From: Oscillospiraceae bacterium
GTDB lineage: Bacteria > Bacillota > Clostridia > Oscillospirales > Oscillospiraceae
Direction of reading: 5' to 3'
DNA: 38,665 nt
Assembly (NCBI GenBank): GCA_017435615.1
Contig: JAFSET010000085.1
Span: forward strand, 1 to 38,665
The notes below the pieces were generated by a model. That model saw only the letters and a program-made list of their open reading frames with translations, ran no database searches and was not told where the DNA came from. Shown here piece by piece: positions 5,661 to 38,665 of the stretch. Position numbers and translations under genes: made by a program. Numbering within the stretch: the stretch's first letter is position 1; every line of letters starts with the position of its first letter.

Positions 5661-6869
5661 TCATTTCTTTCTGGCATAGATCCGGGCAAGGCCGCCTTCG
5701 CTGGTTTCACGGAAGCGGTGGTTCAGGTTGATGCCTGTTTCATGCATGGCTCGACAGACCATATCATAGCTGATATTTCTGGAGCCTGTGAGGAAATAAC
5801 TGAGGTTACAGGCATTCATAGCACGCATAGCCGCCACGGCGTTACGCTCGATACAGGGAATTTGCACCAGGCCGCAGATGGGGTCACAGGTCAGGCCCAA
5901 ATGGTGCTCCATCGCCACCTCAGCGGCGTACTCCACCTGGTCCAAATCCTGGTCATACAGCTCTGCCAGGGCCGCGGCCGCCATGGAACAGGCGGTGCCG
6001 ATCTCTGCCTGGCAGCCACATTCCGCGCCGGAAATGGAGGCGTTGCGCTTGGTCAGGCTGCCGATAATACCGGCAGTTGCCAAACCGCGCAGGATCTGCT
6101 CATCGGTATAGTTTCTGGTATCCTGGGCATATTTCAGCACCGCAGGCAGCACGCCGCAGGCTCCGCAGGTCGGTGCGGTCACCACAGTACCGTTATCCGC
6201 ATTTTGCTCTGCCACTGCGTAGGCATAGGCGGCGATCTGCTGGAATTCCTTCAAAGCGTGCAGGTCTTCCTGAGGCTCCTGCTCATACAGATACTTGGCT
6301 TTGCGCTGGACATTCAAACCGCCGGGCAAGGTGCCGGTTGCGGCAAGGCCGTCGGCAATGGACTGCTTCATGGTCTGCCAAACCTGGGCCAAAAATTCCC
6401 AAATTTCCTCGCCCTCATTCAGCTCCACATAGTCCGACAGCTTGTGAATATACCGCCATTTGCAGAAATCCGCAATTTCCGCAAAGGAGTTCTCCGGATA
6501 CACATCCGGGCTGTCCAGCGTTTTTTCACCGGGCACACGGATATCACCGCCGCCAATGGACTCGATCCGCAGACTGCCCAGCTTTTCCTCTCCGGAGAAA
6601 GCAATCAGGTCCATGGTATTGGGGTGGCTGTCCGGCAGCACTTCCTTGGAAAACTCGATCTCCACAGGCTTGGGATCCAAGACCTGGCGAATCACCCGGT
6701 CTGTGCCGTGGCCTACGCCGGTTTTACTCAGAGAGCCGTACAGGATCACCTGAAACCGGTCCGCCTGAGGATATAAGCTTTTAAAATGCTCTGCCGCCCG
6801 TTCCGGTCCCATAGTATGGGAGGAGGATGGGCCTTTTCCGATTTTATAGATCTCGCGGATGGATTTCAT
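5661..6869 (-). CDS. sdaA: L-serine dehydratase (iron-sulfur), single chain
   Basis: The enzyme deaminates L-serine to pyruvate and ammonia in the cytoplasm with an oxygen-sensitive [4Fe-4S] cluster. The 402 residues join the beta domain (KIGKGPSSSHTMGPERAA, about 6-25; SIGGGDI) to the alpha domain, which holds TAPTCGACGVLPAVL, ISGAECGCQAEIGTACSMA and LTCDPICGLVQIPCIERN. The cysteines of the last three motifs are the family's cluster and active-site candidates. The start at ATG 6869 has GGAGG 7 nt upstream; a longer frame has no such site. It leads a likely operon with ychF and has its own extended -10 promoter and a leader hairpin. Confidence 0.96.
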   Translation of the reverse strand: MKSIREIYKIGKGPSSSHTMGPERAAEHFKSLYPQADRFQVILYGSLSKTGVGHGTDRVIRQVLDPKPVEIEFSKEVLPDSHPNTMDLIAFSGEEKLGSLRIESIGGGDIRVPGEKTLDSPDVYPENSFAEIADFCKWRYIHKLSDYVELNEGEEIWEFLAQVWQTMKQSIADGLAATGTLPGGLNVQRKAKYLYEQEPQEDLHALKEFQQIAAYAYAVAEQNADNGTVVTAPTCGACGVLPAVLKYAQDTRNYTDEQILRGLATAGIIGSLTKRNASISGAECGCQAEIGTACSMAAAALAELYDQDLDQVEYAAEVAMEHHLGLTCDPICGLVQIPCIERNAVAAMRAMNACNLSYFLTGSRNISYDMVCRAMHETGINLNHRFRETSEGGLARIYARKK

Positions 6870-27566: not shown

Positions 27567-28256
27567 ATGGAACACTTACATAGCGGTTACACCTTAGAGC
27601 TTGCTCCGGGCAGCTTTCCCTTAAGCACCGATTCCATGGCATTGGCAGGCTTCGTCCGTCTGCCGAAAAAAGCCGCTGTCCTGGACCTCGGCTCCGGCTG
27701 CGGCACACTGGGACTTTTGCTGTGCGGCAAAGATCCTAATTGCTGTGTGACCGGCATAGAGCTTTCCCCGGAGGATCACCAAATGGCACTGCGCAACGCT
27801 TTGCAAAACGGGATTTCCCACCGTCTTACCAGTATATGCGGTGACCTTCGTTCCATCCCGGATTTTTTACAGCCCGGATCCTTCCAGGTCTGCGTGTCCA
27901 ATCCCCCATACTATACAGGCGGCTTTCAAAGCAGCCGCACCCCCCAGGCCCGGCATACCGACACCTGCAGCACGGAGGAGCTGTTTCGTGCCGCCGGGTG
28001 GGCACTGAAATACGGCGGTGATTTTTTCATCGTGCACAAGCCGGATAATCTGGCCCAGCTTTGTCACCATGCTGTATCCAACCAATTGGAGCCGAAAAAG
28101 CTTCAACTTCTGCGCCACAAAGAGGGCGGCCCTGTCAGTCTGATCCTTTTGCAATGCCGTAAAGGCGCAAAGCCGGGACTTGTCACAGAAGAAGCCGCTC
28201 TGCATACCCCTGACGGCGCGGCTACCGACTTTTACAAGTCTTTATACCATCTGTAA
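27567..28256 (+). CDS. TrmN6/YfiC-like adenine-N6 methyltransferase
   Basis: The 229-residue class I methyltransferase resembles tRNA1(Val) A37 N6-methyltransferase. Motif I is AVLDLGSGCGTLGLLL (about 37-52), then VTGIELSPEDHQMA, CGDLR, and the N6-adenine signature NPPY in VSNPPYYTGG. ATG 27567 has AGGGGG 5 nt upstream; an in-frame TTG five codons earlier is less likely. It is followed by rsmI after 14 bp, and the pair is common in Firmicutes. Substrate tRNA or rRNA is inferred from the family. Confidence 0.9.
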   Translation: MEHLHSGYTLELAPGSFPLSTDSMALAGFVRLPKKAAVLDLGSGCGTLGLLLCGKDPNCCVTGIELSPEDHQMALRNALQNGISHRLTSICGDLRSIPDFLQPGSFQVCVSNPPYYTGGFQSSRTPQARHTDTCSTEELFRAAGWALKYGGDFFIVHKPDNLAQLCHHAVSNQLEPKKLQLLRHKEGGPVSLILLQCRKGAKPGLVTEEAALHTPDGAATDFYKSLYHL

Positions 28257-28270
28257 GGAGGTCATACAAA

Positions 28271-29101
28271 ATGGCCGGAATGTTATATTTGGTCCCCACC
28301 CCCATCGGCAATTTAGGGGATATCTCCATCCGTTGCAGGCAAACCCTGGAGCAGGCGGATTTCATTGCCGCCGAGGACACCCGGGTGACATTGAAGCTAC
28401 TGAACCATTTGGGCATTAAAAAAAGCCTTGTCAGCTACTTTGAGCATAACAAGGCGCAAAAAGGCGACCAAATCGTGGGGCGCATCTTAGCAGGAGAAAC
28501 CTGCGCACTGGTGTCCGATGCCGGAAGTCCGGCCATTTCCGACCCCGGTGAGGAGCTGGTGCAGCAGTGTGCCGCTGCCGGGATCACCGTGTGCGCCATC
28601 CCCGGTCCCTGTGCGGTCATCACCGCCTTAAGCATTTCCGGACAGGCCACCGGCCGGTTTTGCTTTGAGGGCTTTTTGTCCACAGCCAAGAAAAACCGCC
28701 GTGCCCACCTGGAGAGCCTGAAAAATGAGCAGCGGACCATGATTTTCTACGAAGCCCCCCACAAGCTGTGCGCCACTTTGGAGAGCATGGCGGAGGCCTT
28801 CGGCCCGGACCGGCCCATCAGCCTGTGCCGGGAGCTGACAAAGCTTCACGAAGAGGTGATCCGCACCACCCTGGCAGGTGCTATGGAGCTTTACACCCAG
28901 CAGCCGCCCAAGGGGGAATACGTTTTGGTGGTGGCCGGCGCACCGGTGATCGAAGAACCTGCAGCCACCACTGTGGATGCCAAGGACCGGGTCCGGGAGC
29001 TGATGGAGCAGGGACTGAGCCGGAAGGATGCCGTCAAGCAGACCGCTCAGGAGCTGAATATGCCCAAGAACGCAGTCTACGAAGCCGCTTTGCAGGATTA
29101 A
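28271..29101 (+). CDS. rsmI: 16S rRNA (cytidine1402-2'-O)-methyltransferase RsmI
   Basis: RsmI methylates the ribose of C1402. The 276-residue tetrapyrrole-methylase-fold protein starts MLYLVPTPIGNLGDISIR. It then shows AAEDTRVTLKLL, ALVSDAGSPAISDPG, ITVCAIPGPCAVITAL, FCFEGFL, and RELTKLHEEV, all diagnostic. The C-terminal helix bundle KDRVRELMEQGLSRKDAVKQ is also typical. AAGGAGG precedes the start. Its modification partner rsmH is also in this window, in the dcw cluster. Confidence 0.97.
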   Translation: MAGMLYLVPTPIGNLGDISIRCRQTLEQADFIAAEDTRVTLKLLNHLGIKKSLVSYFEHNKAQKGDQIVGRILAGETCALVSDAGSPAISDPGEELVQQCAAAGITVCAIPGPCAVITALSISGQATGRFCFEGFLSTAKKNRRAHLESLKNEQRTMIFYEAPHKLCATLESMAEAFGPDRPISLCRELTKLHEEVIRTTLAGAMELYTQQPPKGEYVLVVAGAPVIEEPAATTVDAKDRVRELMEQGLSRKDAVKQTAQELNMPKNAVYEAALQD

Positions 29102-29118
29102 CAAATGAAACATGTATG

Positions 29119-29145
29119 CGTAGTGCGGGGGCTTGCTCCCGCACT
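29119..29145. repeat. REP-like hairpin, second copy of the GGGGCTTGCTCCC family
   Basis: AGTGCGGG / CCCGCACT closes a loop containing GGCTTGCT. The core and the preceding GTAG match the first unit of the cluster at 10286-10438. It could also form a first hairpin at the end of the rsmI transcript. Confidence 0.55.
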
Positions 29146-29192
29146 GCGTGTTGTACGGTGGATATACCTCGATAAACTGAAACATATAAAAT

Positions 29193-29224
29193 GACCGGGG
29201 AAGCTTTGGCTGCCCCGGTCTTTT
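29193..29224 (+). terminator. Rho-independent terminator after rsmI
   Basis: Stem GACCGGGG / CCCCGGTC (29193-29220) is followed by TTTT. It closes the trmN-like/rsmI unit. Confidence 0.8.
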
Positions 29225-29297
29225 GTATAACAGCTCAGGGTTCACACAGATAAACCGCGAGCCCTCATTTCATTTTAATGCCTATGCAGTGTGTTTT

Positions 29298-29810
29298 CTA
29301 AGAATGACGCTTCCAGCTATCCGCAGCCAATTCCCATTCCCGTTTTCTATACCACAGGCAGGGGATGCGCTCACCTTTTGCAAACACCAGATAAAAATCC
29401 TCTCCAACCTCTGTTGCATCGTAAAATTCCTTATCAACAGAAACAGCTACCTTCCAGTCCCCTTTTTTATTGTAAAACCACAACTGCCACTTATCGGGAG
29501 CTTCATCGCGTTGCGAACGTTTTTTCTCGACACAGGGACGCTCTATGGCATAATACTGCAATTTATGGCGTTTTATGTCTTTTATGATGCGCTGTGTAAA
29601 AGTAAACGGATACACAATGAGAAATAAATAACACGCAGGGTTAAAAAAGTGTGAAAATGCTATGATCGCGCCTATCCAAACCAGTTCAATAAGGTATTCC
29701 AGTAAAGATGCCTTTTGTTTTCGAAACGCAATATCCACTACCGATTTACTCAGCTCTTTTTTACCGTTAGGCAGAATCGCAATTTCTGTTTTTGATTTTG
29801 TTGACTTCAT
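29298..29810 (-). CDS. Hypothetical membrane protein (two predicted helices)
   Basis: I do not recognise a family for this 170-residue protein. Residues 1-32 are polar and basic (MKSTKSKTEIAILPNGKKEL). Two adjacent hydrophobic stretches follow (LLEYLIELVWIGAIIAFSHF and ACYLFLIVYPFTF, about 35-70). The rest is a soluble, aromatic-rich domain (WQLWFYNKKGDWKVAVSVDK). GGAG lies 9 nt before ATG 29810. It is AT-rich compared with the housekeeping genes and stands at the edge of an accessory island. Confidence 0.65.
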   Translation of the reverse strand: MKSTKSKTEIAILPNGKKELSKSVVDIAFRKQKASLLEYLIELVWIGAIIAFSHFFNPACYLFLIVYPFTFTQRIIKDIKRHKLQYYAIERPCVEKKRSQRDEAPDKWQLWFYNKKGDWKVAVSVDKEFYDATEVGEDFYLVFAKGERIPCLWYRKREWELAADSWKRHS

Positions 29811-30042
29811 CAGAAAATCTCCATTCGTATATCTTTCTCACGGTGATCCATTGCCCCATCCTGAACACGGCACGATAAGAACCCCCGTTTCCGAAAAGTC
29901 CTTCATCCAAACCGGAAAACTGTGATCTGCCAAATACGGAGGTTTGCGAAAACGCAAACCTCCGTACAACTCATATGGTGAATTTATCCGGTATGTCCTA
30001 ACATGATGGACAAGCTATGTTTTCATCAGCTTGCTGATCACC
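29811..30042. other. Intergenic stretch with one strong hairpin
   Basis: It contains TACGGAGGTTTGCG / CGCAAACCTCCGTA (29935-29966, loop AAAA), a perfect 14-bp stem after the lipoprotein gene. U-rich sequence after it is weak on both strands. It may terminate the island operon. No other gene is seen. Confidence 0.5.
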
Positions 30043-32157
30043 TTAGTTTTTCGTTCCAATGTCAGTCAGGCTTTCGTTGCCCAAACCTCTGTCAAAACCG
30101 GTGTAGGTACACTTATCCACGAAAAAGGCAAATCCATCTTCACCACAGGTATTGCCAATGATACCGCCAAACCAGTTTTTATAATTCTCTGCGTCAATAT
30201 TGACAACATCCAAATTTCCGGTGTTTTTGCTATTTGTGATCTTCAAGCAGGCGTTATCGGATTGAATATTCTTTTCGTCAGCTTCATCGGAATCCGTAGT
30301 CAGGAAAAGGCCGGAACCGACACGGCCAACAATACCGCCGGCAATACGGGAAACAGTCATGATCTCGGCATCCTGTTCGGTCATATTGTCCGCCGCGGCG
30401 GTAATTGCAAGCGTACCGCTATTGGCGCAATTATCCACGACTGTTGCAACATTCGCCATTCCCCAGTTGCCGAGGATACCACCGATATACCCATTAACCT
30501 TATCAATTGTGATGTTTCCGCTGTTGACACAATTGGAAATCGAAACGGAAACGCCATCACCCATTTCAAGGCAAACCGGCATATCCATAAAGCTGATTAC
30601 GCCGCCAGCGTTCAAAGCAGAGGCAATGCTGCCTGTATTCTCACAGTTGTCAATAACCGTATTGCTATTGGAGGGCTTGCTGTTCATGATCCAATATGCG
30701 ACGATACCGGCACAATGCTGGCCTTCCGACGCAAGGGACCCGGTGTTTTTGCAGCCCTTGATTTTGACATTGCCTGTTTCACTCATAAATCTACCAATGA
30801 TACCGCCAACCGTTCCCTTGCTCAGGTCAGCCTTGTTTTCGCAGTTTTCCACTACAATGCTGTCGCCATTGTCCGCATCACCGGTGCACTCCAAATGTCC
30901 AATGATACCTGCGGTATAATCTTTAGAAATCACAACACCGCTATTGACACATTCAGAAACGGTAACGCAATAATCATTATGGTCATTGGAGACCTGTCCT
31001 GCAATGCCGCCTGCATACATCTGTCCGGAAACCGAACCGCTGTTTTCGCACTTGGTAACCAGAGCTCCACGGCTCATATATTTTTCGCTGCCTGTTGCGG
31101 AAACGAAAACCTTGCCAACAATACCGCCTGCAATCGCTAACTGTTCACCGTCTTTCATCTCGCAATCAAGCGTACCGGTGTTTTTACAGTTGGAAACTGT
31201 ACCTTCGCTCATTCTGCCTGCAATGCCGCCTACGGAATCAACATTACTTCCGGTGAAAGCAATCGTGCCATGATTGACACAAGCCTCGACATTTCCGTCG
31301 CACTCACCGATGATACCACCGATATAGGTCATTGCATCTTCTTTTACCTGCGTGATTTTTCCGGCAAAGGTGCAATTTGCAATGGTGGAATAGTTAACTT
31401 CTCTTTCTTCACCATCGTCAACGACGCCGGTATCAACACCGCCGTAAGCATTGCCGGCAATTCCGCCCAGGACATTATCGTAGCAGTTTAAAACCGCTGT
31501 GCTGGAGCAGCCGTCAATCATTGCCTGATCCATCAAAAGACCCGCAATACTGCCAACACCACAGGGACGACCGGAAACAGCTATAAAAGACTTGTCGATT
31601 TTAACATTCTTGACTGTACCGTCAACGGTATCAAACAAGCCGTAATTGTTTGTAGAGTTTTCATCTGCCGTTCCGCAGTTGGTGTTGATATAAAGGCCGG
31701 AAATGGTGTAGCCCTTGCCATCAAACACGCCGTCAAACTCTACAGCATCAAAGCCAATGGGCATCCAGGAATATTCGGGAGCTGTATTTTCCCAACTGTC
31801 GAAATTGGCCACATCATTGATCGCAATATCTGCTGTCAAAACATAATGCGCGCTCTTATACTCGTCCTTAAGTTCTTTATCGTCAGCTACCATTTTTTCA
31901 TGGAGCAACGCCAACTCAGCAGCGTTCGAGATCTGATACGGGTTGCCTTCAGAACCGTCACCGCCTGCAAACGCAGAAGCAGCAGTTACATATTTTGCTT
32001 CAGGCAATTCACGGAATAAATATTCATAAGCGTTGTTTTCCGTTTGATTGTTTGTGGTTTCTTGATCGTGATTGGGCTCTTTGCTATCGTTGCCGCATCC
32101 GGCAAATGCGGACACGATCAGCATCAATGATAACAGGACTGCTAATGTCTTTTTCAT
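30043..32157 (-). CDS. Repeat-rich (GLUG-like, beta-helix) surface lipoprotein
   Basis: The 704-residue protein has a lipoprotein signal peptide: KKTLAVLLSLMLIVSAFAGC, with Cys20 the likely lipidated residue. It is followed by an Asn/Thr/Glu linker. A conserved opening motif GDGSEGNPYQISNAAELALL and FDGVFDGKGYTISGLYI leads into many repeats of the form GGI-x-G ... I-x-x-C-x-N-x-G. These are GLUG-type turns of a right-handed beta-helix, as in adhesin-like or mucin-binding proteins. Function is inferred only at that level. AAAGGAG lies 8 nt before the ATG. It follows the zinc-ribbon gene by 14 bp, so both should be transcribed from the direction of the invertible segment. Confidence 0.82.
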   Translation of the reverse strand: MKKTLAVLLSLMLIVSAFAGCGNDSKEPNHDQETTNNQTENNAYEYLFRELPEAKYVTAASAFAGGDGSEGNPYQISNAAELALLHEKMVADDKELKDEYKSAHYVLTADIAINDVANFDSWENTAPEYSWMPIGFDAVEFDGVFDGKGYTISGLYINTNCGTADENSTNNYGLFDTVDGTVKNVKIDKSFIAVSGRPCGVGSIAGLLMDQAMIDGCSSTAVLNCYDNVLGGIAGNAYGGVDTGVVDDGEEREVNYSTIANCTFAGKITQVKEDAMTYIGGIIGECDGNVEACVNHGTIAFTGSNVDSVGGIAGRMSEGTVSNCKNTGTLDCEMKDGEQLAIAGGIVGKVFVSATGSEKYMSRGALVTKCENSGSVSGQMYAGGIAGQVSNDHNDYCVTVSECVNSGVVISKDYTAGIIGHLECTGDADNGDSIVVENCENKADLSKGTVGGIIGRFMSETGNVKIKGCKNTGSLASEGQHCAGIVAYWIMNSKPSNSNTVIDNCENTGSIASALNAGGVISFMDMPVCLEMGDGVSVSISNCVNSGNITIDKVNGYIGGILGNWGMANVATVVDNCANSGTLAITAAADNMTEQDAEIMTVSRIAGGIVGRVGSGLFLTTDSDEADEKNIQSDNACLKITNSKNTGNLDVVNIDAENYKNWFGGIIGNTCGEDGFAFFVDKCTYTGFDRGLGNESLTDIGTKN

Positions 32158-32171
32158 TCTTCTTTTCTCCT

Positions 32172-32948
32172 TTACTTTTTAACAAAGCCTTGACCTAACA
32201 AGGTGCTTTCCGTTGCAGACATAGAGATAAAAGTATTTGCCTGCAAAATTCCTGCGCTGTACAATTCAGCGTAGCTGCTTTCTTGATCCACGTTGGAATA
32301 GGTGCAGGTAATGGTGAAATAACTTGTACCCATTTTGTAAGTAACCGTGCAGCAGTTAAGGGCTTCTACTGTCGCAAATTGTGTTTTCATTGTATTTTCC
32401 AATTCTGCCTTTTGCGCATCCGTATGCTCAGAAACCGGAATATACATGGTTTCTACCCACTGCTTGACGGTGTCATCCTTGTAGCCATAGTCAGCACAAC
32501 AAATTATTCCGTCATTCTGCTTGAATGCAAAGCTCTTCATTTCCATATTAAAGAATGTCTGGAAATGTACGATATATGTGTCGTCAAAAATTGCATCGTA
32601 GGCAGGATTTGCCGAGTTTACAGACGATCCGCCCATGTTATTTGTATTTTGTTGAGATTGGCTGCCCTGGTTACCCGTCTGGTTGCCAGGGTCAGATACC
32701 ATGGACGGCGCAATTACAAACTTTCCAATCAAAAAAGCACATAACACAACAGCTAAAACGATAAAAATATTTGCTTTCTTTTTAGGCGCTTTTGGGGGTT
32801 GCTGGGGTGGTGCTTCAGCAATTTCAGGCTGATTTACCGTTGCTTGCAGTTCGGAATTCCTATTCTGAGTTACTTGTTGCTGCGCACCGCAAAAGTTGCA
32901 GAACTTTGCGGTGTCCGGAAGCTGCTTTCCACAATTTGAACAGAACAT
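32172..32948 (-). CDS. Zinc-ribbon membrane protein
   Basis: The 258-residue protein opens with a zinc ribbon, MFCSNCGKQLPDTAKFCNFCG (C-x2-C ... C-x2-C, residues 3-21). A Pro/Gln-rich linker leads to one membrane helix (NIFIVLAVVLCAFLIGKFVI, about 64-84), then a Gln/Asn-rich spacer and an extracellular domain of about 140 residues with Cys pairs (GIICCADYGY, ALNCCTVTYK). The N-terminal zinc finger is thus cytoplasmic and the C-terminus outside. AAGGAGG sits 5 nt before ATG 32948, which rules out the longer in-frame ORF. No specific function is recognised. It is the first gene downstream of the inverted-repeat segment. Confidence 0.78.
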   Translation of the reverse strand: MFCSNCGKQLPDTAKFCNFCGAQQQVTQNRNSELQATVNQPEIAEAPPQQPPKAPKKKANIFIVLAVVLCAFLIGKFVIAPSMVSDPGNQTGNQGSQSQQNTNNMGGSSVNSANPAYDAIFDDTYIVHFQTFFNMEMKSFAFKQNDGIICCADYGYKDDTVKQWVETMYIPVSEHTDAQKAELENTMKTQFATVEALNCCTVTYKMGTSYFTITCTYSNVDQESSYAELYSAGILQANTFISMSATESTLLGQGFVKK

Positions 32949-33130
32949 ACTCTCCTCCTTTAAAAATATATATTTTTTGATTTCCTTCACACGAACACGC
33001 TGATCACAGTTCGCACGCAGGACCTGAAGCAAGCATAGTCCCTAAATCTGTTAAGCTACCGCTTGCAATTGCCCCTGCGAAGACACAGTCATCCAAGCCT
33101 GCCGCTATCTCTATACTCCTTTCTGATATT
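32949..33130. other. Leader region between the inverted repeat and the zinc-ribbon gene
   Basis: It contains an isolated AAAGGAG (33116-33122, minus strand) directly outside the left repeat. An open frame of 34 codons follows (33004-33108) but has only ATA at the expected start position. No convincing promoter was seen here, so transcription probably comes from the neighbouring segment. Confidence 0.4.
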
Positions 33131-33156
33131 ACATAATCTGCATTATGTTGTGAATT
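33131..33156 (+). repeat. Left inverted repeat (26 bp)
   Basis: It begins ACATAATCTGCATTATGT and continues GTTGTGAATT-type sequence up to 33156. It is the exact reverse complement of 33383-33408, and identity ends at both borders. It contains an inner palindrome ACATAAT-CTGC-ATTATGT. Confidence 0.92.
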
Positions 33157-33337
33157 ACGGTAAAGAAAAACGCTTACAAATAATTTTTGAATACGGATAA
33201 CCGAAAAATGGGTATACAAAGCCGAGCCTTTTCAATTTTTTTGTTTGAAAAGGCTTATTTGTGCTACATAATGCTTGCTGTTTTTTGCAAAACATTCTTT
33301 TTCCCTCAAAGTACTTGCTATTGTCGCTGCGGTGTGA

Positions 33338-33346
33338 TATATTATA
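33338..33346. promoter_or_regulatory. Bidirectional extended -10 elements inside the segment
   Basis: TGATATATT on the plus strand and TGATATAAT on the minus strand overlap. Both match the TGn extended -10. The -35 boxes (TTGCTA; ATTACA) match consensus at 4 of 6 positions each. Confidence 0.5.
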
Positions 33347-33382
33347 TCAGAAAAATCTAATATGTAATTTGTTTTTCAAAAA

Positions 33383-33408
33383 AATTCACAACATAATGCA
33401 GATTATGT
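33383..33408 (-). repeat. Right inverted repeat (26 bp)
   Basis: It reads AATTCACAACATAATG then CAGATTATGT. This copy extends to a symmetric site CAACATAAT-GCAG-ATTATGTTG (ending at 33410), the shape of a tyrosine-recombinase crossover site with two 9-bp arms. Confidence 0.92.
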
Positions 33409-33412
33409 TGCT

Positions 33413-33437
33413 GCCGCCGTTTTCGGTGGCTTTTTTT
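33413..33437 (+). terminator. Rho-independent terminator facing out of the segment
   Basis: GCCGCCG / CGGTGGC with a TTTT loop is followed by seven T on the plus strand. It stands between the right inverted repeat and the 3' end of the convergent recombinase gene, and would stop rightward transcripts from the segment. Confidence 0.75.
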
Positions 33438-34281
33438 ATATGGTCAAGCGCATATTTTCCAACTGCTTTCGGTGCTCGTTGCCGGTGGTGATAATATAGA
33501 TTCGTGTCGTGTTGATACTGCTGTGACCGAGAATATCTGCAAGCTTGGCAATGTCCTTTTCGATGCCGTAAAAGGTACGTGCGAACAGGTGCCGAAGATT
33601 ATGGGGAAATACCTTTTGCGGATTTACCCCTGCCTGCTCACAAAGGTTTTTCATCTCCCGCCAAATGTTGGTACGGCTCATCGGCTTGCCGTTACGGGTT
33701 ATGAACACTGCACCCGTTGTGATGTTTTGTTCTGCAGCATATCGAAGTATTTTCCTTTGCAATTCTCGAACAATAAAAACCGAGCGCGTTTTACCTTTTA
33801 GCGAAACAACTGCCTGACCGCGCCTTGCAGCCTCCACCGTAATGGACCGCAGTTCGCTGACACGGATACCTGTGGCGCATATTGTTTGGATCAGCAAGCT
33901 TAGCCGTTCATTGCCTTTCTGCCCGGCCGTGTTTACAAGGCGCATATATTCCGCTTTGGTCAGTTCCTTTTCTTCGGGACAGTAGATCTGCCGTTGAAGC
34001 TTGATGGACTTCACTTTTAAATCTGTCCATCCCAAAAATGAGAGCAAACCGTTGATAGAAGCAAGCATTGAATTTACACTGCGTGCGGCATAGTGATTGG
34101 CAAGCAGTTTGTTTTTATAGGCAATCACCGTTTCCTTTGTGATCTGCGCATCGCCAAGATAAGCAGAAAACGCCCTCACATCACGGATATATTTTTCTAT
34201 CGTATTTTCGCTTTTTTCCTCGCTTTTGAGATATGCGGCAAACCGCGTTATTTGAGTATCTGTTATAATTCTTCCTTTCAT
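33436..34281 (-). CDS. Tyrosine recombinase (Xer/phage-integrase family)
   Basis: The 281-residue site-specific recombinase has an N-terminal SAM-like core-binding domain (residues 8-95, with SENTIEKYIRDVRAFSAYL). The catalytic domain shows the full set: Arg140 (ATGIRVSEL), Lys164 (LKGKTRSV), His227 and Arg230 (PHNLRHLFA), His253 (LGHSSINTTR) and the nucleophile Tyr262. It therefore looks active. Its length is that of stand-alone invertases and Xer-like enzymes, not of full phage integrases with an arm-binding domain. GGAGG lies 8 nt before ATG 34281. Its 3' end abuts the inverted-repeat segment, the probable substrate. No phage genes or excisionase are nearby. Confidence 0.92.
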   Translation of the reverse strand: MKGRIITDTQITRFAAYLKSEEKSENTIEKYIRDVRAFSAYLGDAQITKETVIAYKNKLLANHYAARSVNSMLASINGLLSFLGWTDLKVKSIKLQRQIYCPEEKELTKAEYMRLVNTAGQKGNERLSLLIQTICATGIRVSELRSITVEAARRGQAVVSLKGKTRSVFIVRELQRKILRYAAEQNITTGAVFITRNGKPMSRTNIWREMKNLCEQAGVNPQKVFPHNLRHLFARTFYGIEKDIAKLADILGHSSINTTRIYIITTGNEHRKQLENMRLTI

Positions 34282-34590
34282 GGACTTTACCTCCGGATCG
34301 TTTTCCTCTTATTTTACCCGAAAAGTAGGATATGAAAACCATCATCCAAATTATAGGTAAACACTGTATTCCAGTCGAATATAACATATACGGAAATGAT
34401 GCCGTTTGCCTGAGGCAAAACCATTCATTTTGCGCCGTATAGACACCCGTCCCCGGGTGTCTGAAATTCAAAAACAGCACAAATCTGCGTAATTTTTGCA
34501 AATTTTGTGCTGTTTTTCTGTGCTAATTACGGACGCCTCGGAGAGGTGAGGCTACAAAACCATTTTAAGACAGCTCCGTTTTTGTCGATA
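34282..34590. other. Intergenic region with two hairpins, no gene
   Basis: It carries AGACACCCG/CGGGTGTCT (34441-34462) and a strong bidirectional terminator (34471-34516). A TATAAT-like -10 for the recombinase gene lies at 34350-34355 (minus strand) with a poor -35. No ORF with a ribosome binding site is seen. Confidence 0.5.
34471..34516. terminator. Terminator between the AbrB-type and recombinase genes
   Basis: A 13-bp stem AAAACAGCACAAA / TTTGTGCTGTTTT closes a loop of about 20 nt. A and T runs on the two sides allow function on either strand, most usefully for the AbrB-type transcript. Confidence 0.65.
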
Positions 34591-34833
34591 TTACAGGTCA
34601 TTGAGCGCCTGGATGCAGTCTGCGCAGACGGCTCTGCCCCGGTGGATCACCAGAGAGTTATTTCCCCGGCAGAACACGCAGGAATTCTCATACTTTTTCA
34701 AGATCAGGCGGTCTTCGTCCAAATATATCTCAAGCTCGTCTTTTTCGCTGATATCCATCGCACGGCGCAGCTCGATCGGCAGCACGATGCGCCCAAGCTC
34801 ATCTACCTTACGAACGATTGCGGTCATTTTCAT
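34591..34833 (-). CDS. AbrB/SpoVT-type transcriptional regulator with C-terminal zinc-binding motif
   Basis: The 80-residue protein has an N-terminal swapped-hairpin AbrB domain (AIVRKVDELGRIVLPIELRRAM, residues 5-26, and DELEIYLDEDRLILKKY). AbrB proteins are transition-state regulators that bind AT-rich promoters as dimers or tetramers. The C-terminus adds CVFCRGNNSL and VCADCIQAL, two CxxC pairs that probably bind a metal. The start at 34833 has GGAG 11 nt upstream. It is driven by a perfect consensus promoter (34888-34916), which implies high or tightly repressed expression, perhaps autoregulated. Confidence 0.9.
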   Translation of the reverse strand: MKMTAIVRKVDELGRIVLPIELRRAMDISEKDELEIYLDEDRLILKKYENSCVFCRGNNSLVIHRGRAVCADCIQALNDL

Positions 34834-34887
34834 TTTCCCAAAATCTCCTTTTATCCTTATATTCTTTCATAACGGCTAATGTTCAGT

Positions 34888-34916
34888 ATTATACTATTTT
34901 AATTTCCTCCTGTCAA
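34888..34916 (-). promoter_or_regulatory. Perfect consensus sigma-A promoter for the AbrB-type gene
   Basis: On the minus strand TTGACA (34911-34916) and TATAAT (34888-34893) are exactly 17 bp apart. It is the strongest promoter sequence in the window. Confidence 0.85.
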
Positions 34917-35015
34917 TTTCTTTTTTCTTTTTTTGAAAATTCTTTTCGGCTTGCTCATACACTTGTCTATCAAGGGCAAGCACCTGCTTGCGTGTCGGAT
35001 ACAGGAGGTATTTTC

Positions 35016-35597
35016 ATGCTGATGAGCTATATTTGGACCGGGTTGGTTGCCGTATCCTTACTTGCGGCACTTTGGACCGGGCAAGGCGGTGCTTTGGCTT
35101 CCGCCGTTGCCCAAGGTGCCCGGGAGGGCATTACTTTGGTGATCTCCCTGGCCGGGTCCATCTGTCTTTGGACCGGCGCAGGGAGGCTAATGGAGCACGC
35201 CGGTGTCACCGGATTGCTTGCGCGGATGTTAAAGCCGGTGCTTGGAAGACTGTTCCCCTCCAGCCGCACGGACCGGCATTTGGCAGGCAGCCTCAGTGCC
35301 AATGTATGCGCAAACCTTTTGGGGCTGGGCAATGCCGCTACGCCTATGGGAATTCAGGCTGCTCAGCGGCTGGCGCTGCAAAGTAAAAACGGCGTTGCCA
35401 CCGACGAATTATGCCGCCTGATCGTCCTCAATACCGCCTCTATTCAGTTGATCCCGGCCAATGTAGCCGCTGTGCGCACCGCCTTAGGCTGCGCCTCCCC
35501 TTTCGACATTTTGCCTGCTGTTTGGATCACCTCTGTCTGCTCTGCCGGTTTAGGCGTTACCGCCGCCTGGCTGTTGGGGAGGTGCTGGCGGAAATGA
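35016..35597 (+). CDS. spmA: Spore maturation protein A
   Basis: SpmA is a membrane protein of the nucleoside-recognition (Gate) family that, with SpmB, affects spore core dehydration in Bacillus and Clostridium. The 193-residue protein has four or five hydrophobic helices and the family segments EGITLVISLAGSICLWTGAG, LAGSLSANVCANLLGLGNAATPMGI and LIVLNTASIQLIPANV. AGGAGG lies 6 nt before ATG 35016; the longer ORF upstream is not coding. It overlaps spmB by 4 bp (ATGA). Its presence implies an endospore-forming lineage. Confidence 0.93.
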   Translation: MLMSYIWTGLVAVSLLAALWTGQGGALASAVAQGAREGITLVISLAGSICLWTGAGRLMEHAGVTGLLARMLKPVLGRLFPSSRTDRHLAGSLSANVCANLLGLGNAATPMGIQAAQRLALQSKNGVATDELCRLIVLNTASIQLIPANVAAVRTALGCASPFDILPAVWITSVCSAGLGVTAAWLLGRCWRK

Positions 35598-36106
35598 CCG
35601 ATTATGTTGTGCCACTTTTGCTGCTTGTCAGCTCTGTTTTGGCCCTGAGAAAAAAAGAGCCGGTTTACGACCTGCTGCTGCAAGGCGGTGCAGAAGGGTT
35701 GAAGCTTTTGGTGACCCTGATCCCTACCCTGGTGATACTACTGGTGGCCGTTACCATGCTCCGGTCCTCCGGGGCTATGGAGCTGATCGGACAGTTCACT
35801 GCCCCGGTGTTTCGCCTGTTCGGCATCCCGGAGGAAACCGCCCTTTTGGTGCTGATCCGTCCCATCAGCGGCAGCGCGGCTCTGGCAGTGGGCACGGAGC
35901 TGATGGCAAGCCACGGCGTTGACTCCCTCGTAGGACGCACCGCCGCCGTGATGCTGGGCTCCACAGAAACCACCTTTTATACCATCAGCGTCTATTTTGG
36001 CGCAGCCGGAATTCGCAAGACCCGCTACACACTGATCGCTGCCCTTTTGGCCGATCTTACCGGTTTTTTTATGGCCAGCTTAACGGTTCGGCTGCTGTAC
36101 CCGTAA
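35594..36106 (+). CDS. spmB: Spore maturation protein B
   Basis: SpmB is the partner of SpmA. The 170-residue membrane protein of the same superfamily starts MTDYVVPLLLLVSSVLALRK and contains GAEGLKLLVTLIPTLVILLV, LIRPISGSAALAVGTELM and MLGSTETTFYTISVYFG, the conserved gate motif. It is translationally coupled to spmA. The pair is usually expressed in the forespore; no forespore sigma promoter was confidently identified upstream. Confidence 0.93.
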   Translation: MTDYVVPLLLLVSSVLALRKKEPVYDLLLQGGAEGLKLLVTLIPTLVILLVAVTMLRSSGAMELIGQFTAPVFRLFGIPEETALLVLIRPISGSAALAVGTELMASHGVDSLVGRTAAVMLGSTETTFYTISVYFGAAGIRKTRYTLIAALLADLTGFFMASLTVRLLYP

Positions 36107-36167
36107 TTCCTGTATATTTGAACTGTTCTTTTTCTCCTTTTCGCTCATTTTTTATCGATAATACCAG

Positions 36168-36196
36168 TTTACTTTCCGGGGATTTAATGGTATGAT
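36168..36196 (+). promoter_or_regulatory. Promoter for the sortase gene
   Basis: TTTACT (36168-36173), 17 bp, TATGAT (36191-36196). The -10 box overlaps an upstream in-frame ATG at 36192, so that ATG cannot be on the transcript and the start is at 36216. Confidence 0.55.
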
Positions 36197-36215
36197 AGGT
36201 GCAGGATGTGATACG

Positions 36216-37019
36216 ATGCGCAAATGGATATTCAGAGTGCTGATCGTGATCTTTGGCGGTATTCTTATTTTCTCCGCCGGTCAGCTCATTAACTACTATG
36301 TTCACTCCCGACAGCAACAGCAGCAATTCGACGAATTGGCACAGCTTGTGCAAAGCAGCACCACTGTGCCTGTTACCCGTCCTGTTCCGGAGGATCCTCC
36401 CCAGGAAACCGAACCAACGGAGCCTGCGGAAACCGCTCCGCCGGTGATCTTGCCGGAGTACGCGGAGCTTTACGGAATGAATAACCATGTGGCAGGCTGG
36501 CTGCAAATCGAAGACACCCGGATCAACTACCCTGTGATGCAGGTCCCGGATGCCGTCGACTACTACTTACAACGGGATTTTTACGGCAACTACAGTGCCC
36601 ACGGCTGTCTGTATGCCCGGGAGCAATGCGATCTCAACAGACCCTCGGACAACATCACCGTTTACGGCCACGCCATGAAGGATGGCTCTATGTTCGGCGG
36701 TCTTTCCAGCTACCGCAGCGAAAGCTACTGGAAGGAGCACCGATATATCCGATTTGACACCCTTTACGAGCATCATACCTACGAGATTTTCGCTGTTTTC
36801 GTCACCACCGCCCACAAGGTAAAAGGCTTTGCCTATCACCTGTTTGTGGATGCGCAGGATCAGGCCGATTTCGACAGTTTTATCGCACAATGCAAGGAGC
36901 TTGCTCTGTATGACACCGGCTTGACTCCGGAGTACGGTGACAAGCTGCTCACCCTGTCTACCTGCGAGTACACCCAAAGCGATGGCCGCCTTGTGGTCAT
37001 GGCCAAACAAATTCGTTAA
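36216..37019 (+). CDS. srtB: Class B sortase
   Basis: Sortases are membrane-anchored transpeptidases that attach exported proteins to peptidoglycan or each other. The 267-residue protein has an N-terminal membrane helix (FRVLIVIFGGILIFSAGQLI), a Gln-rich then Pro/Glu/Thr-rich stalk (about 32-75) and the catalytic domain. Active-site residues are visible: His in VYGHAMKDGSMFGGL, Cys in TLSTCEY and Arg in DGRLVVMAKQI. The DGSMFGGL and TLSTCEY motifs are those of class B. No sorting-signal substrate is encoded in the window, so its target is elsewhere. Confidence 0.93.
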   Translation: MRKWIFRVLIVIFGGILIFSAGQLINYYVHSRQQQQQFDELAQLVQSSTTVPVTRPVPEDPPQETEPTEPAETAPPVILPEYAELYGMNNHVAGWLQIEDTRINYPVMQVPDAVDYYLQRDFYGNYSAHGCLYAREQCDLNRPSDNITVYGHAMKDGSMFGGLSSYRSESYWKEHRYIRFDTLYEHHTYEIFAVFVTTAHKVKGFAYHLFVDAQDQADFDSFIAQCKELALYDTGLTPEYGDKLLTLSTCEYTQSDGRLVVMAKQIR

Positions 37020-37045
37020 CAAATCATTTCAGGAGGAATATAAAT

Positions 37046-38218
37046 ATGGATTACGCAAAAGAATCTCTGCGGCTTCACGGTGAGTGGGGCGGCAAAATCG
37101 AAGTGGTGGCCAAGGTCCCCGTTGCCACCAAGGAAGACCTTTCTCTGGCTTATACCCCCGGCGTTGCACAGCCCTGCCTGGAGATCCAGAAGGATGTGAA
37201 CAAGTCCTACGAGCTGACCCGCCGTCACAATCTGTGCGCCGTGATCACCGACGGCACTGCCGTCCTGGGTCTGGGCGACATTGGTCCTGAGGCCGGTATG
37301 CCCGTTATGGAGGGCAAGTGCGCTCTGTTTAAGGCTTTCGGTGACGTGGACGCCTTCCCTCTTTGCGTTAAGAGCAAGGATGTGGACGAGTTTGTAAACG
37401 CCGTTTACCTGATGTCCGGCTCCTTCGGTGGCATCAACCTGGAGGATATCTCCGCTCCCCGTTGCTTTGAGATCGAGCGCAAGCTGAAGGAAAAGTGCGA
37501 CATTCCCATTTTCCACGATGACCAGCACGGCACCGCTGTGATCACCCTGGCCGGTCTTCTGAACGCCATCAAGGTGGTGGGCAAGAAGAAGGAGGATGTA
37601 AAGATCGTCACCTCCGGCGCTGGCGCTGCCGCCATTGCTATCGTGAAGCTGCTGCTCAGCGCAGGCTTCAAGAATGTGGTGATGACCGACCGTACCGGCG
37701 CCATCTACGCCGGCCGTGAGAACCTGAACTGGATCAAAGAGGAAATGGCTCAGGTCACCAACCTGCAGAAGCAGACCGGCAAGCTGGAGGATGTGATCAA
37801 GGGAGCGGATGTATTCATCGGTGTTTCCGGCCCCGGTACTCTGACCACCGAAATGGTCAAGAGCATGGCTAAGGACGCCATCATCTTTGCCTGCGCCAAC
37901 CCCACCCCCGAAATTTTCCCCGATGACGCCAAGGCAGGCGGCGCACGGGTAATTGCCACCGGCCGCAGTGATTTCCCCAACCAGATCAACAACGTGCTGG
38001 CCTTCCCCGGCATTTTCCGCGGCACCTTCGATGTTCGCGCCAGCGACATTAACGAGGAGATGAAGATGGCTGCCGCTCAGGCTCTGGCTGACCTGATCTC
38101 CGACGAGGAACTCAACGAGGACTACATCATTCCTGCTGCTTTCGACAAGCGTGTTGGCCCTGCCGTGGCCAAGGCTGTTGCCGAAGCCGCCCGGAAATCC
38201 GGCGTTGCCAGAATTTAA
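37046..38218 (+). CDS. NAD(P)-dependent malic enzyme
   Basis: The enzyme decarboxylates L-malate to pyruvate and CO2 with NAD(P) in the cytoplasm. The 390-residue bacterial short form shows LAYTPGVAQPCLEI, TDGTAVLGLGDIGPEAGMPVMEGK, PIFHDDQHGTAVI (metal-binding Asp pair) and the dinucleotide loop SGAGAAAIAIVKLL. FACANPTPEIFPDDA and ATGRSDFPNQINNVLAFPGIF follow, all diagnostic. AGGAGG lies 9 nt before ATG 37046. Its very codon-biased sequence (few A/T third positions) suggests high expression. It ends at a strong terminator. Confidence 0.97.
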   Translation: MDYAKESLRLHGEWGGKIEVVAKVPVATKEDLSLAYTPGVAQPCLEIQKDVNKSYELTRRHNLCAVITDGTAVLGLGDIGPEAGMPVMEGKCALFKAFGDVDAFPLCVKSKDVDEFVNAVYLMSGSFGGINLEDISAPRCFEIERKLKEKCDIPIFHDDQHGTAVITLAGLLNAIKVVGKKKEDVKIVTSGAGAAAIAIVKLLLSAGFKNVVMTDRTGAIYAGRENLNWIKEEMAQVTNLQKQTGKLEDVIKGADVFIGVSGPGTLTTEMVKSMAKDAIIFACANPTPEIFPDDAKAGGARVIATGRSDFPNQINNVLAFPGIFRGTFDVRASDINEEMKMAAAQALADLISDEELNEDYIIPAAFDKRVGPAVAKAVAEAARKSGVARI

Positions 38219-38231
38219 TCCCATAAACCAC

Positions 38232-38273
38232 CACCCCCCGGGAAAGCCTGTAAACAGGCTTTCCCGGGGGGTG
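38232..38273 (+). terminator. Very strong terminator hairpin after malic enzyme
   Basis: A 19-bp perfect stem, CACCCCCCGGGAAAGCCTG / CAGGCTTTCCCGGGGGGTG, has loop TAAA and is followed by CATTTCTTTCCTTT. Confidence 0.8.
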
Positions 38274-38340
38274 CATTTCTTTCCTTTGATTGGACAGATT
38301 TCCTTAGCAGGCAATAACATCCAGCGAATGTCAGGGAACG

Positions 38341-38375
38341 GATTGCCACGCCGACATTTGGCGGCTCGCAATGAC
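38341..38375 (+). repeat. REP-like palindrome, copy 1
   Basis: It runs GATTGCCACGCCG to GGCTCGCAATGAC around a variable centre that pairs as GCCG/CGGC. The shared ends are GATTGCCACG and CGCAATGAC. Confidence 0.75.
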
Positions 38376-38470
38376 ATTCTGGTGGGTTTTTGTTGTTTTG
38401 TTAAACAGGATAATCGCTGATACGCAAAGCCTTTTTCTTTTTGCAGAAATACCAAAAAACCTAAAGCGGT

Positions 38471-38507
38471 GTCATTGCGAGCCAGTGCTCACACTGGCGT
38501 GGCAATC
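38471..38507 (-). repeat. REP-like palindrome, copy 2 (opposite orientation)
   Basis: GTCATTGCGAGCCAGTG, loop CTCA, then CACTGGCGTGGCAATC. It has the same conserved ends as copies 1 and 3 but is inverted. Confidence 0.75.
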
Positions 38508-38631
38508 TCAAAACGCAAAGGTGTACATTACCCGAGCCCAAAGGACACGTTCCGGCCTAAAATAATGATTATTTATTATTTCAGGTCCCTAATATCCTTT
38601 GGCACCATCAACGAATAAAGTTTCCCTTTGA

Positions 38632-38665
38632 GATTGCCACGGGTGCTGCGCACCCTCGCAATGAC
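38632..38665 (+). repeat. REP-like palindrome, copy 3 (reaches right edge)
   Basis: GATTGCCACGGGTGC, then GCACCCTCGCAATGAC, ending at the last base of the window. The region 38282-38665 holds these three copies and no supported gene. Confidence 0.72.

Follow-up and report, generated by a model that had tools for sequence, protein, structure and literature searches.

The 38,665-nt stretch of DNA analysed here (referred to as the window) very probably contains a promoter-inverting ON/OFF switch, which would be run by the recombinase encoded beside it. In the window, short inverted repeats flank a segment that bears a promoter (recognized by its sequence), as in invertons, and two inverted sites that share one core lie just past the recombinase gene, as in the cassettes described below. 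According to the mechanism we propose, the recombinase (33436 to 34281) would bind two inverted dif-like sites (33129 to 33150 and 33389 to 33410), which would be paired by bending the approximately 260 bp between them into a loop. Strand exchange at a 6-bp core would then leave the segment inverted. The segment would carry one promoter, close to one of its ends. In the OFF state, which is the orientation as assembled, this promoter would fire to the right and be stopped at 33410 to 33430, giving a predicted short RNA of about 80 to 90 nt. In the ON (inverted) state it would fire to the left, through the left site and into an operon coding for a zinc-ribbon protein and a lipoprotein. The site pairing, the matched cores, the presence of both orientations in relatives, the promoter position, and the terminator direction were obtained by comparison; what we infer is that inversion takes place in the window strain, that the adjacent enzyme catalyses it, how ON and OFF are transcribed, and that the spacing serves looping.

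The probable switch and its surroundings in the window

A repeat search over positions 28000 to 38665 returned 13 inverted pairs, of which the pair formed by the arms 33131 to 33156 and 33383 to 33408 ranks first. The arms are 26 nt long, 100% complementary, and have 226 nt between them, exactly as the initial annotation had described them. Its placement of a tyrosine recombinase 27 bp from the right repeat was likewise borne out (the open reading frame ends at 33436 and the arm at 33408). It had also pointed to a symmetric site in the right repeat; this site is real, but the proposed 9-4-9 layout is less apt than the 22-bp site with a 6-bp core obtained by motif scan. From the motif scan and the repeat arms, the left (operon-side) recombination site on the forward strand is TTACATAA-TCTGCA-TTATGTTG at 33129 to 33150, with its core at 33137 to 33142. 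The right (recombinase-side) site, also given on the forward strand, is CAACATAA-TGCAGA-TTATGTTG at 33389 to 33410, and its core (33397 to 33402) is the reverse complement of the left core. Between the two 22-bp sites lies the predicted invertible segment of 238 nt (33151 to 33388). In the window's own genome (one assembly, 76.6% complete), the site's 20-mer occurs with at most three mismatches in only two places, both being these sites. On the reverse strand, an open stretch of about 34 codons (33028 to 33130) follows the left site and includes a Shine-Dalgarno-like AGAAAGGAG with no standard start codon at the usual distance; among the fetched loci this 34-residue stretch had no relatives.

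The proposed invertase (281 aa, reverse strand, 33436 to 34281) was identified by its domain matches and catalytic residues. It matches Phage_integrase (E 3.5e-25) and has an N-terminal SAM-like domain. Tyrosine recombinases share the catalytic set R, K, H-x-x-R, H/W, and Y, and this set is present in the window's enzyme, where R140, K162, K164, H227, R230, H253, and Y262 are identical in all 78 readable recombinases, the window's included, of 81 considered. The closest solved structure is 4a8e, a XerC-like protein. The best NCBIfam model is recomb_XerA_Arch with 145.1 bits, which lies below the cut-off of 220, and assignment as a XerC/XerD/XerA equivalog was rejected on that score. The tyrosine-type DNA invertase models NF007371 and NF007370 were rejected as well, scoring 31.4 and 28.4 bits where their cut-offs are 222 and 221, respectively.

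To the left of the switch, two genes are encoded on the reverse strand. The first (32172 to 32948) codes for a protein with an N-terminal zinc ribbon found by domain scan and, by eye, a membrane-spanning-like stretch. The second (30043 to 32157) codes for a protein of 704 aa with a lipobox-like start (by eye) and no Pfam match. An exported-protein operon had been placed 182 bp past the left repeat; the distance is correct (the first ATG is at 32948), but a clear export signal is seen only in the second protein. For this 704-aa lipoprotein, partial matches only were found, in 16 of 60 other genomes of the same genus.

The switch and the operon are held in a block (29102 to 34590) of 5.5 kb that separates rsmI from an abrB-type gene. 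The block was probably acquired, since rsmI and the abrB-type gene adjoin in several genomes of the same genus. All 41 genus genomes that were searched have rsmI, and 29 loci besides that of the window were returned. Read with up to 1.5 kb of flanking sequence, 12 of the 29 have an abrB-type gene immediately after rsmI, and a further four have the next conserved gene near. Nine longer stretches taken from the remaining 13 loci have the next gene within a few kb in three cases, abrB approximately 9.5 kb away in one, and neither in five; none of the nine contains a site pair. The place between rsmI and abrB is probably a variable spot at which the window's block was acquired.

Matched sites and helical spacing among relatives

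Relatives of the recombinase were collected by a protein-based scan of genome contigs, of which the best 80 of 244 loci (mostly Clostridia metagenome assemblies) were kept, giving 81 loci with the window. One of them (L043) belongs to the cultured Merdimmobilis hominis An559, and its contig place recurs in a same-order genome (G118), so that the window's genome presumably falls within the Clostridia. Twelve contigs end within 420 nt of the recombinase, two loci have no pair, and 67 have one, i.e., 67 of the 69 loci that extend far enough have a site pair beside the recombinase. An unguided inverted-repeat search places the beginning of the pair approximately 30 nt past the recombinase stop in most relatives, and the aligned family site just after the recombinase reads CAACATAA-N6-TTATGTTG. 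When the distal site was chosen by arm score alone, the 6-bp cores matched as inverted copies in 63 of the 67 loci (65 with free choice of partner); with shuffled partners the number of matches averaged 3.0 and never exceeded 11. The loci share ancestry, so that these counts are not independent events, and the many metagenome assemblies among them may combine strains. The 67 loci have 31 different cores. A core that varies between loci and is identical within a locus is the pattern that strand exchange at the core predicts.

Within the same genus, a matched pair was also found beside five of six more distant recombinases (53 to 59% identical). Furthermore, a degenerate DNA pattern that ignores the recombinase was searched blindly in 394 genomes of the same order, yielding 24 places in 22 genomes. 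The cores match in all 24, and the reversed-pattern control hit none of the 394 genomes. A recombinase of the family adjoins 20 of the 22 blind-pattern loci (window included). This set is only partly independent, as at least five of its 22 genomes also supplied loci of the relatives scan (same contig places). Two loci, L119 and L120, have matched-core site pairs and no family recombinase within the fetched stretches, and may be served from elsewhere. When the pattern was applied to the 41 genomes that hold 42 of the 80 relatives-scan loci, it matched in 32 of them, and the cores agree in all 35 places listed. A pattern with a shorter gap matched in three of 287 genomes of another family, one of which (G652) has unequal cores; at that contig place a second partner with an equal core lies further on (G316).

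Extra copies of the site with the same core were observed 63 nt away (six helical turns) in L077, L115, and L118, and at 55 and 33 nt in L087 and L112. Such loci may hold two coexisting invertible lengths.

A few loci deviate from the common layout. L082 has no sites and L051 has one. The latter, a relative of L044, retains the recombinase (end at 6834), the terminator, one hybrid site, and the L044-like downstream sequence, and the segment is missing. The left half of the hybrid site matches the outer arm of the proximal site of L044 and its right half the outer arm of the distal site, which is the product that would be expected of a rare deletion exactly at the sites. In L067 and L092, no partner with a matching core was found. 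The two cores of L067 differ (ACATTA versus CGCAGT), and those of its close relative L064 match; L067 has possibly swapped with another cassette, or is locked.

The distances from site to site cluster at approximately 241, 251, 261, and 272. For a period of 10.5 bp, the Rayleigh R is 0.66 over 64 loci and 0.57 (p ~1e-4) over the 28 loci outside the main mode. The 24 loci of the blind search gave an R of 0.61, with the pattern itself restricting the range to approximately three turns, and 34 further, more distant cassettes gave an R of 0.67 (p ~2e-7). Because the loci are related, the p values are underestimates, but all three sets are in agreement. The period is not pinned to exactly 10.5 bp, as 10.35 and 11.1 fit the 64-locus set equally well, and the best-fit periods of 11.0 (24-locus set) and 10.7 (distant set) are at the upper end of the values tried. 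It is likely that the sites must face the same side of the helix, meeting across a loop of about 25 turns. If the switch reading is right, the cassettes would offer a clean case for testing the helical-phase limit on recombination over about 250 bp.

Promoter orientation, hairpins, and competing explanations

The conserved outward promoter of the window (TTGCTA-17-TATATT, with TG before the -10 element) lies on the forward strand at 33315 to 33343, 45 nt from the segment end, and points to the right, away from the operon. It is overlapped on the reverse strand (33341 to 33368) by a leftward promoter-like site (ATTACA-16-TATAAT, also with TG) that scores low in the family profile and may leak some transcription to the operon in the OFF state. 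Promoter calls were restricted to segments of 200 to 310 nt, which kept 64 of the 67. With the profile, one strand scores at least 8 bits in 63 of 64 segments, and the opposite strand does so in one of 64. This contrast is inflated by training on these very segments (7% of shuffled segments reach 8 bits). The fixed promoter position and the segment-alignment test are not built into the trained profile. The promoter ends 34 to 50 nt from one segment end in 56 of the 64. When all segments were aligned against each other, all 284 same-strand pairs had equal promoter calls, and 92 of 93 homologous pairs on opposite strands had opposite calls.

In 53 of 64 loci the promoter is directed toward the recombinase and in 11 toward the operon (52 and 12 before the correction of L049, which was operon-facing by a weak score and was reassigned since the alignment contradicted this call). 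An opposite-strand alignment of 238 nt links the segments of L023 and L073, which both stand upstream of large proteins with near-identical starts, and another links L064 and L067 (88.7% over 168 nt). On a recombinase tree of 61 of the 64 rows (three recombinases with broken frames in MAG data are omitted), 11 changes are required for the 11 operon-facing loci, a number not below that obtained with shuffled labels. The window and its tree sister differ in orientation, the window facing its recombinase (OFF) and L023 facing the operon (ON-type). A comparison of orientations across related genomes, which the initial annotation had suggested as a check, thus returned both of them among relatives, with one genome per species. 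Its reading of the segment as an invertible promoter is supported by the comparisons made here (site pairs, matched cores, both orientations among close relatives, helical spacing, and arms that follow the recombinase), with the amendment that the conserved promoter faces away from the operon as assembled. Because this promoter faces the recombinase, the operon is probably OFF as assembled, and the OFF state is the most likely reading of the assembled window. If this is right, the orientation of such loci in metagenomes can be predicted from sequence alone by locating the promoter.

Between the right site and the 3' end of the recombinase gene, the window has an intrinsic-terminator-like hairpin on the forward strand (33410 to 33430), which would terminate OFF-facing transcripts before they could extend antisense into the recombinase gene. 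A terminator-like hairpin directed toward the recombinase, between its stop and the proximal site, is found in 53 of 64 loci; in the opposite direction none is found in the 64 loci, and shuffles also give none.

A second hairpin, GAGCCTTTTC...GAAAAGGCTT, occupies the center of the window's segment (33224 to 33256) and is proposed to be a terminator or insulator. Hairpins were analysed in the 53 of 67 segments that are 225 to 256 nt long, 38 of which conserve the central GCCTTTTC...GAAAAGGC by a simple pattern. The inner helix, named by hand, is supported by pairing in 90% of cells, changes on both sides in eight of ten pairs, and 449 Watson-Crick cells (402.5 in shuffles). The outer helix was dropped (193 Watson-Crick cells versus 202.3 in shuffles). 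Unaided, RNAalifold found no consensus structure in the alignment of 53 rows, and Rfam gave only two matches, far below gathering scores. Within a 12-nt window, a T-run fit for termination opposite to the promoter is present in 31 of 53 segments and one in the promoter direction in 6 of 53; the window's own central hairpin has neither. In the OFF state, the central hairpin would keep transcription that comes from the recombinase gene from continuing into the operon.

Three other explanations have to be weighed. The family switch may be real and the window's copy locked, either because the segment no longer inverts or because the operon is otherwise driven, which we regard as improbable. The window is known from a single assembly, its central hairpin is without a T-run, a divergent leftward promoter-like site is present, and some relatives have lost or mismatched sites. 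Moreover, the 182 nt between the left arm and the first ATG make a long leader that speaks against a switch in the window, as 47 of 67 loci have an open reading frame of at least 70 aa that begins no more than 60 nt from the distal site and the window has none. Against a locked copy, the catalytic residues, the recombinase reading frame, and the terminator are all intact, and the 26-nt repeats and the cores are identical; perfect repeats are what a recent inversion would leave.

It is very unlikely that the repeats are an att-like or dif-like site at which the recombinase or the host's XerC/D integrates or excises DNA, with the promoter being incidental. The recombinase resembles XerA/XerC/XerD, and the arms of the window and family sites presumably resemble dif half-sites; the block between rsmI and abrB looks acquired, and L051 has lost its segment at the sites. 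These points are outweighed by cores that agree as inverted copies in 63 of 67 loci, an arrangement that gives inversion, by the occurrence of both segment orientations with a promoter at a constant distance from one site, and by a terminator that faces the OFF direction only. The idea that the repeats are a pair of hairpins (terminators or regulator sites) that do not recombine is scarcely credible. Each site is near-palindromic and could fold, but neither a hairpin nor an operator needs cores that vary between loci and match within a locus, and the opposite orientations among relatives also argue against it. An invertible promoter remains the reading we prefer.

A proposed cassette family and its relation to known switches

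When 287 genomes from one related family were searched with the recombinase, at least 101 gave a match at E 1e-70 or better, and among the matches listed a single genome had as many as eight. Forty copies were fetched from 11 genomes, of which three stop at contig ends and 37 are usable. All 37 are followed by an inverted-repeat pair scoring at least 12, a score reached by 1.1% of 370 shuffled stretches. Besides ACATAA, the arms GACAAAA, CACGGAA, and ACAGAA occur in these copies. A generic site rule was passed by 93 of 118 recombinases (34 of the 40 new ones), the rule itself demanding identical cores. Among the 93 cassettes, similarity of the arms follows recombinase identity with a Mantel r of 0.71 and similarity of the cores with an r of 0.28, none of 999 permutations being as high in either case. 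The tracking of arms and recombinases fits a dedicated enzyme for each site pair, and shared descent alone would explain part of it.

Several copies can coexist in one genome, as in G701, where six copies have six different cores. Avoidance of equal cores within a genome is not apparent, as 1 of 57 within-genome and 5 of 609 between-genome pairs share a core among 37 cassettes of 11 genomes (one more match on each side if the site of L244 is read one base over). The contigs C7, C8, and C20 of G111/G460 (L215 to L217) present three cassettes in one genome, two with the same core in G111, and two of the contigs start approximately 55 nt before a site, as if the assembly breaks at the switch.

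The cargo is diverse. Pfam matches were obtained for 12 of 17 chosen downstream proteins, including SPFH/Band 7 proteins, surface proteins of the Big_3/cohesin/GLUG and collagen-repeat kinds, a histidine kinase, a response regulator, a PLD/SNF2 helicase, polysaccharide synthesis, a protein kinase, a T5orf172/ResIII protein, and MatE. The PLD/SNF2-helicase protein (L045) and the T5orf172/ResIII protein (L061) are each encoded downstream of the switch, and defence-like systems may be phase-variable too. In both the phage and the plasmid collection, all matches are below 60% identity; one plasmid match (L169) has a matched site pair, and two other matches (L168 and L170) have none by the strict pattern.

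On balance, we favor the view that these loci form a large, cargo-independent Clostridia family of self-contained cassettes. Each would combine a dedicated recombinase, co-diverging arms, a freely variable 6-bp core serving as a private key, whole-turn spacing that lets the short loop close, an OFF terminator, and a central insulator hairpin, and would front adhesin, exopolysaccharide, signalling, SPFH/zinc-ribbon, or defence-like genes; a genome with six or more copies would then have that many separate and mostly orthogonal switches. If this is right, many uncultured gut and rumen Clostridia use one standard module to put operons for surface, signalling, and defence-like functions under phase variation, each operon being served by an enzyme of its own. 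The 93 matched sets of recombinase and sites would provide a table of how tyrosine recombinases read arms, and the cassettes a supply of candidate orthogonal switches for engineering.

The dif site has a 6-bp core between inverted arms. The cassettes share with XerC/XerD on dif a Xer-like protein and this layout, and differ from them in having paired inverted sites that flank a promoter and in suggesting no role in chromosome dimers. In fimS of E. coli, the promoter lies on a 314-bp invertible segment with 9-bp inverted repeats, the two tyrosine recombinases FimB and FimE are encoded by adjacent genes, and control is exerted by IHF, Lrp, and H-NS (PMC11316696). The window's family resembles fimS in its promoter on a short segment, its inverted repeats, and the tyrosine recombinase encoded alongside, but unlike fimS it has one recombinase, 22-bp sites, a variable 6-bp core, and many unrelated operons. 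With the RecV switches of C. difficile (PMC7446863) it shares the Clostridia host and the predicted site-specific DNA inversion upstream of an operon; a difference is the dedicated recombinase, which in the window lies 27 nt from its own repeats.

A further counterpart is inverton group 139 of the hCom2 gut strains, which comprises 33 invertons (32 from Clostridia), is linked to one tyrosine recombinase group (invertase group 35), and has orientation changes measured in reads (PMC11892184, 2025). In two of its members the repeat starts are 231 and 241 bp apart by the printed coordinates (PMC11892184), which roughly fits the spacing ladder of the window's family, and repeat starts need not equal site starts. 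The printed position of an Intestinimonas member of group 139 had no match among the matches listed for the 287 genomes of one family (PMC11892184). The cassette family may overlap with group 139, the spacing agreement being only rough. A full-text literature search returned no title or abstract start describing the cassette build, which is weak evidence of novelty, as subscription papers and preprints are thinly covered. The working principle is known from fimS and other invertible promoters, and the stereotyped build of the cassette looks new.
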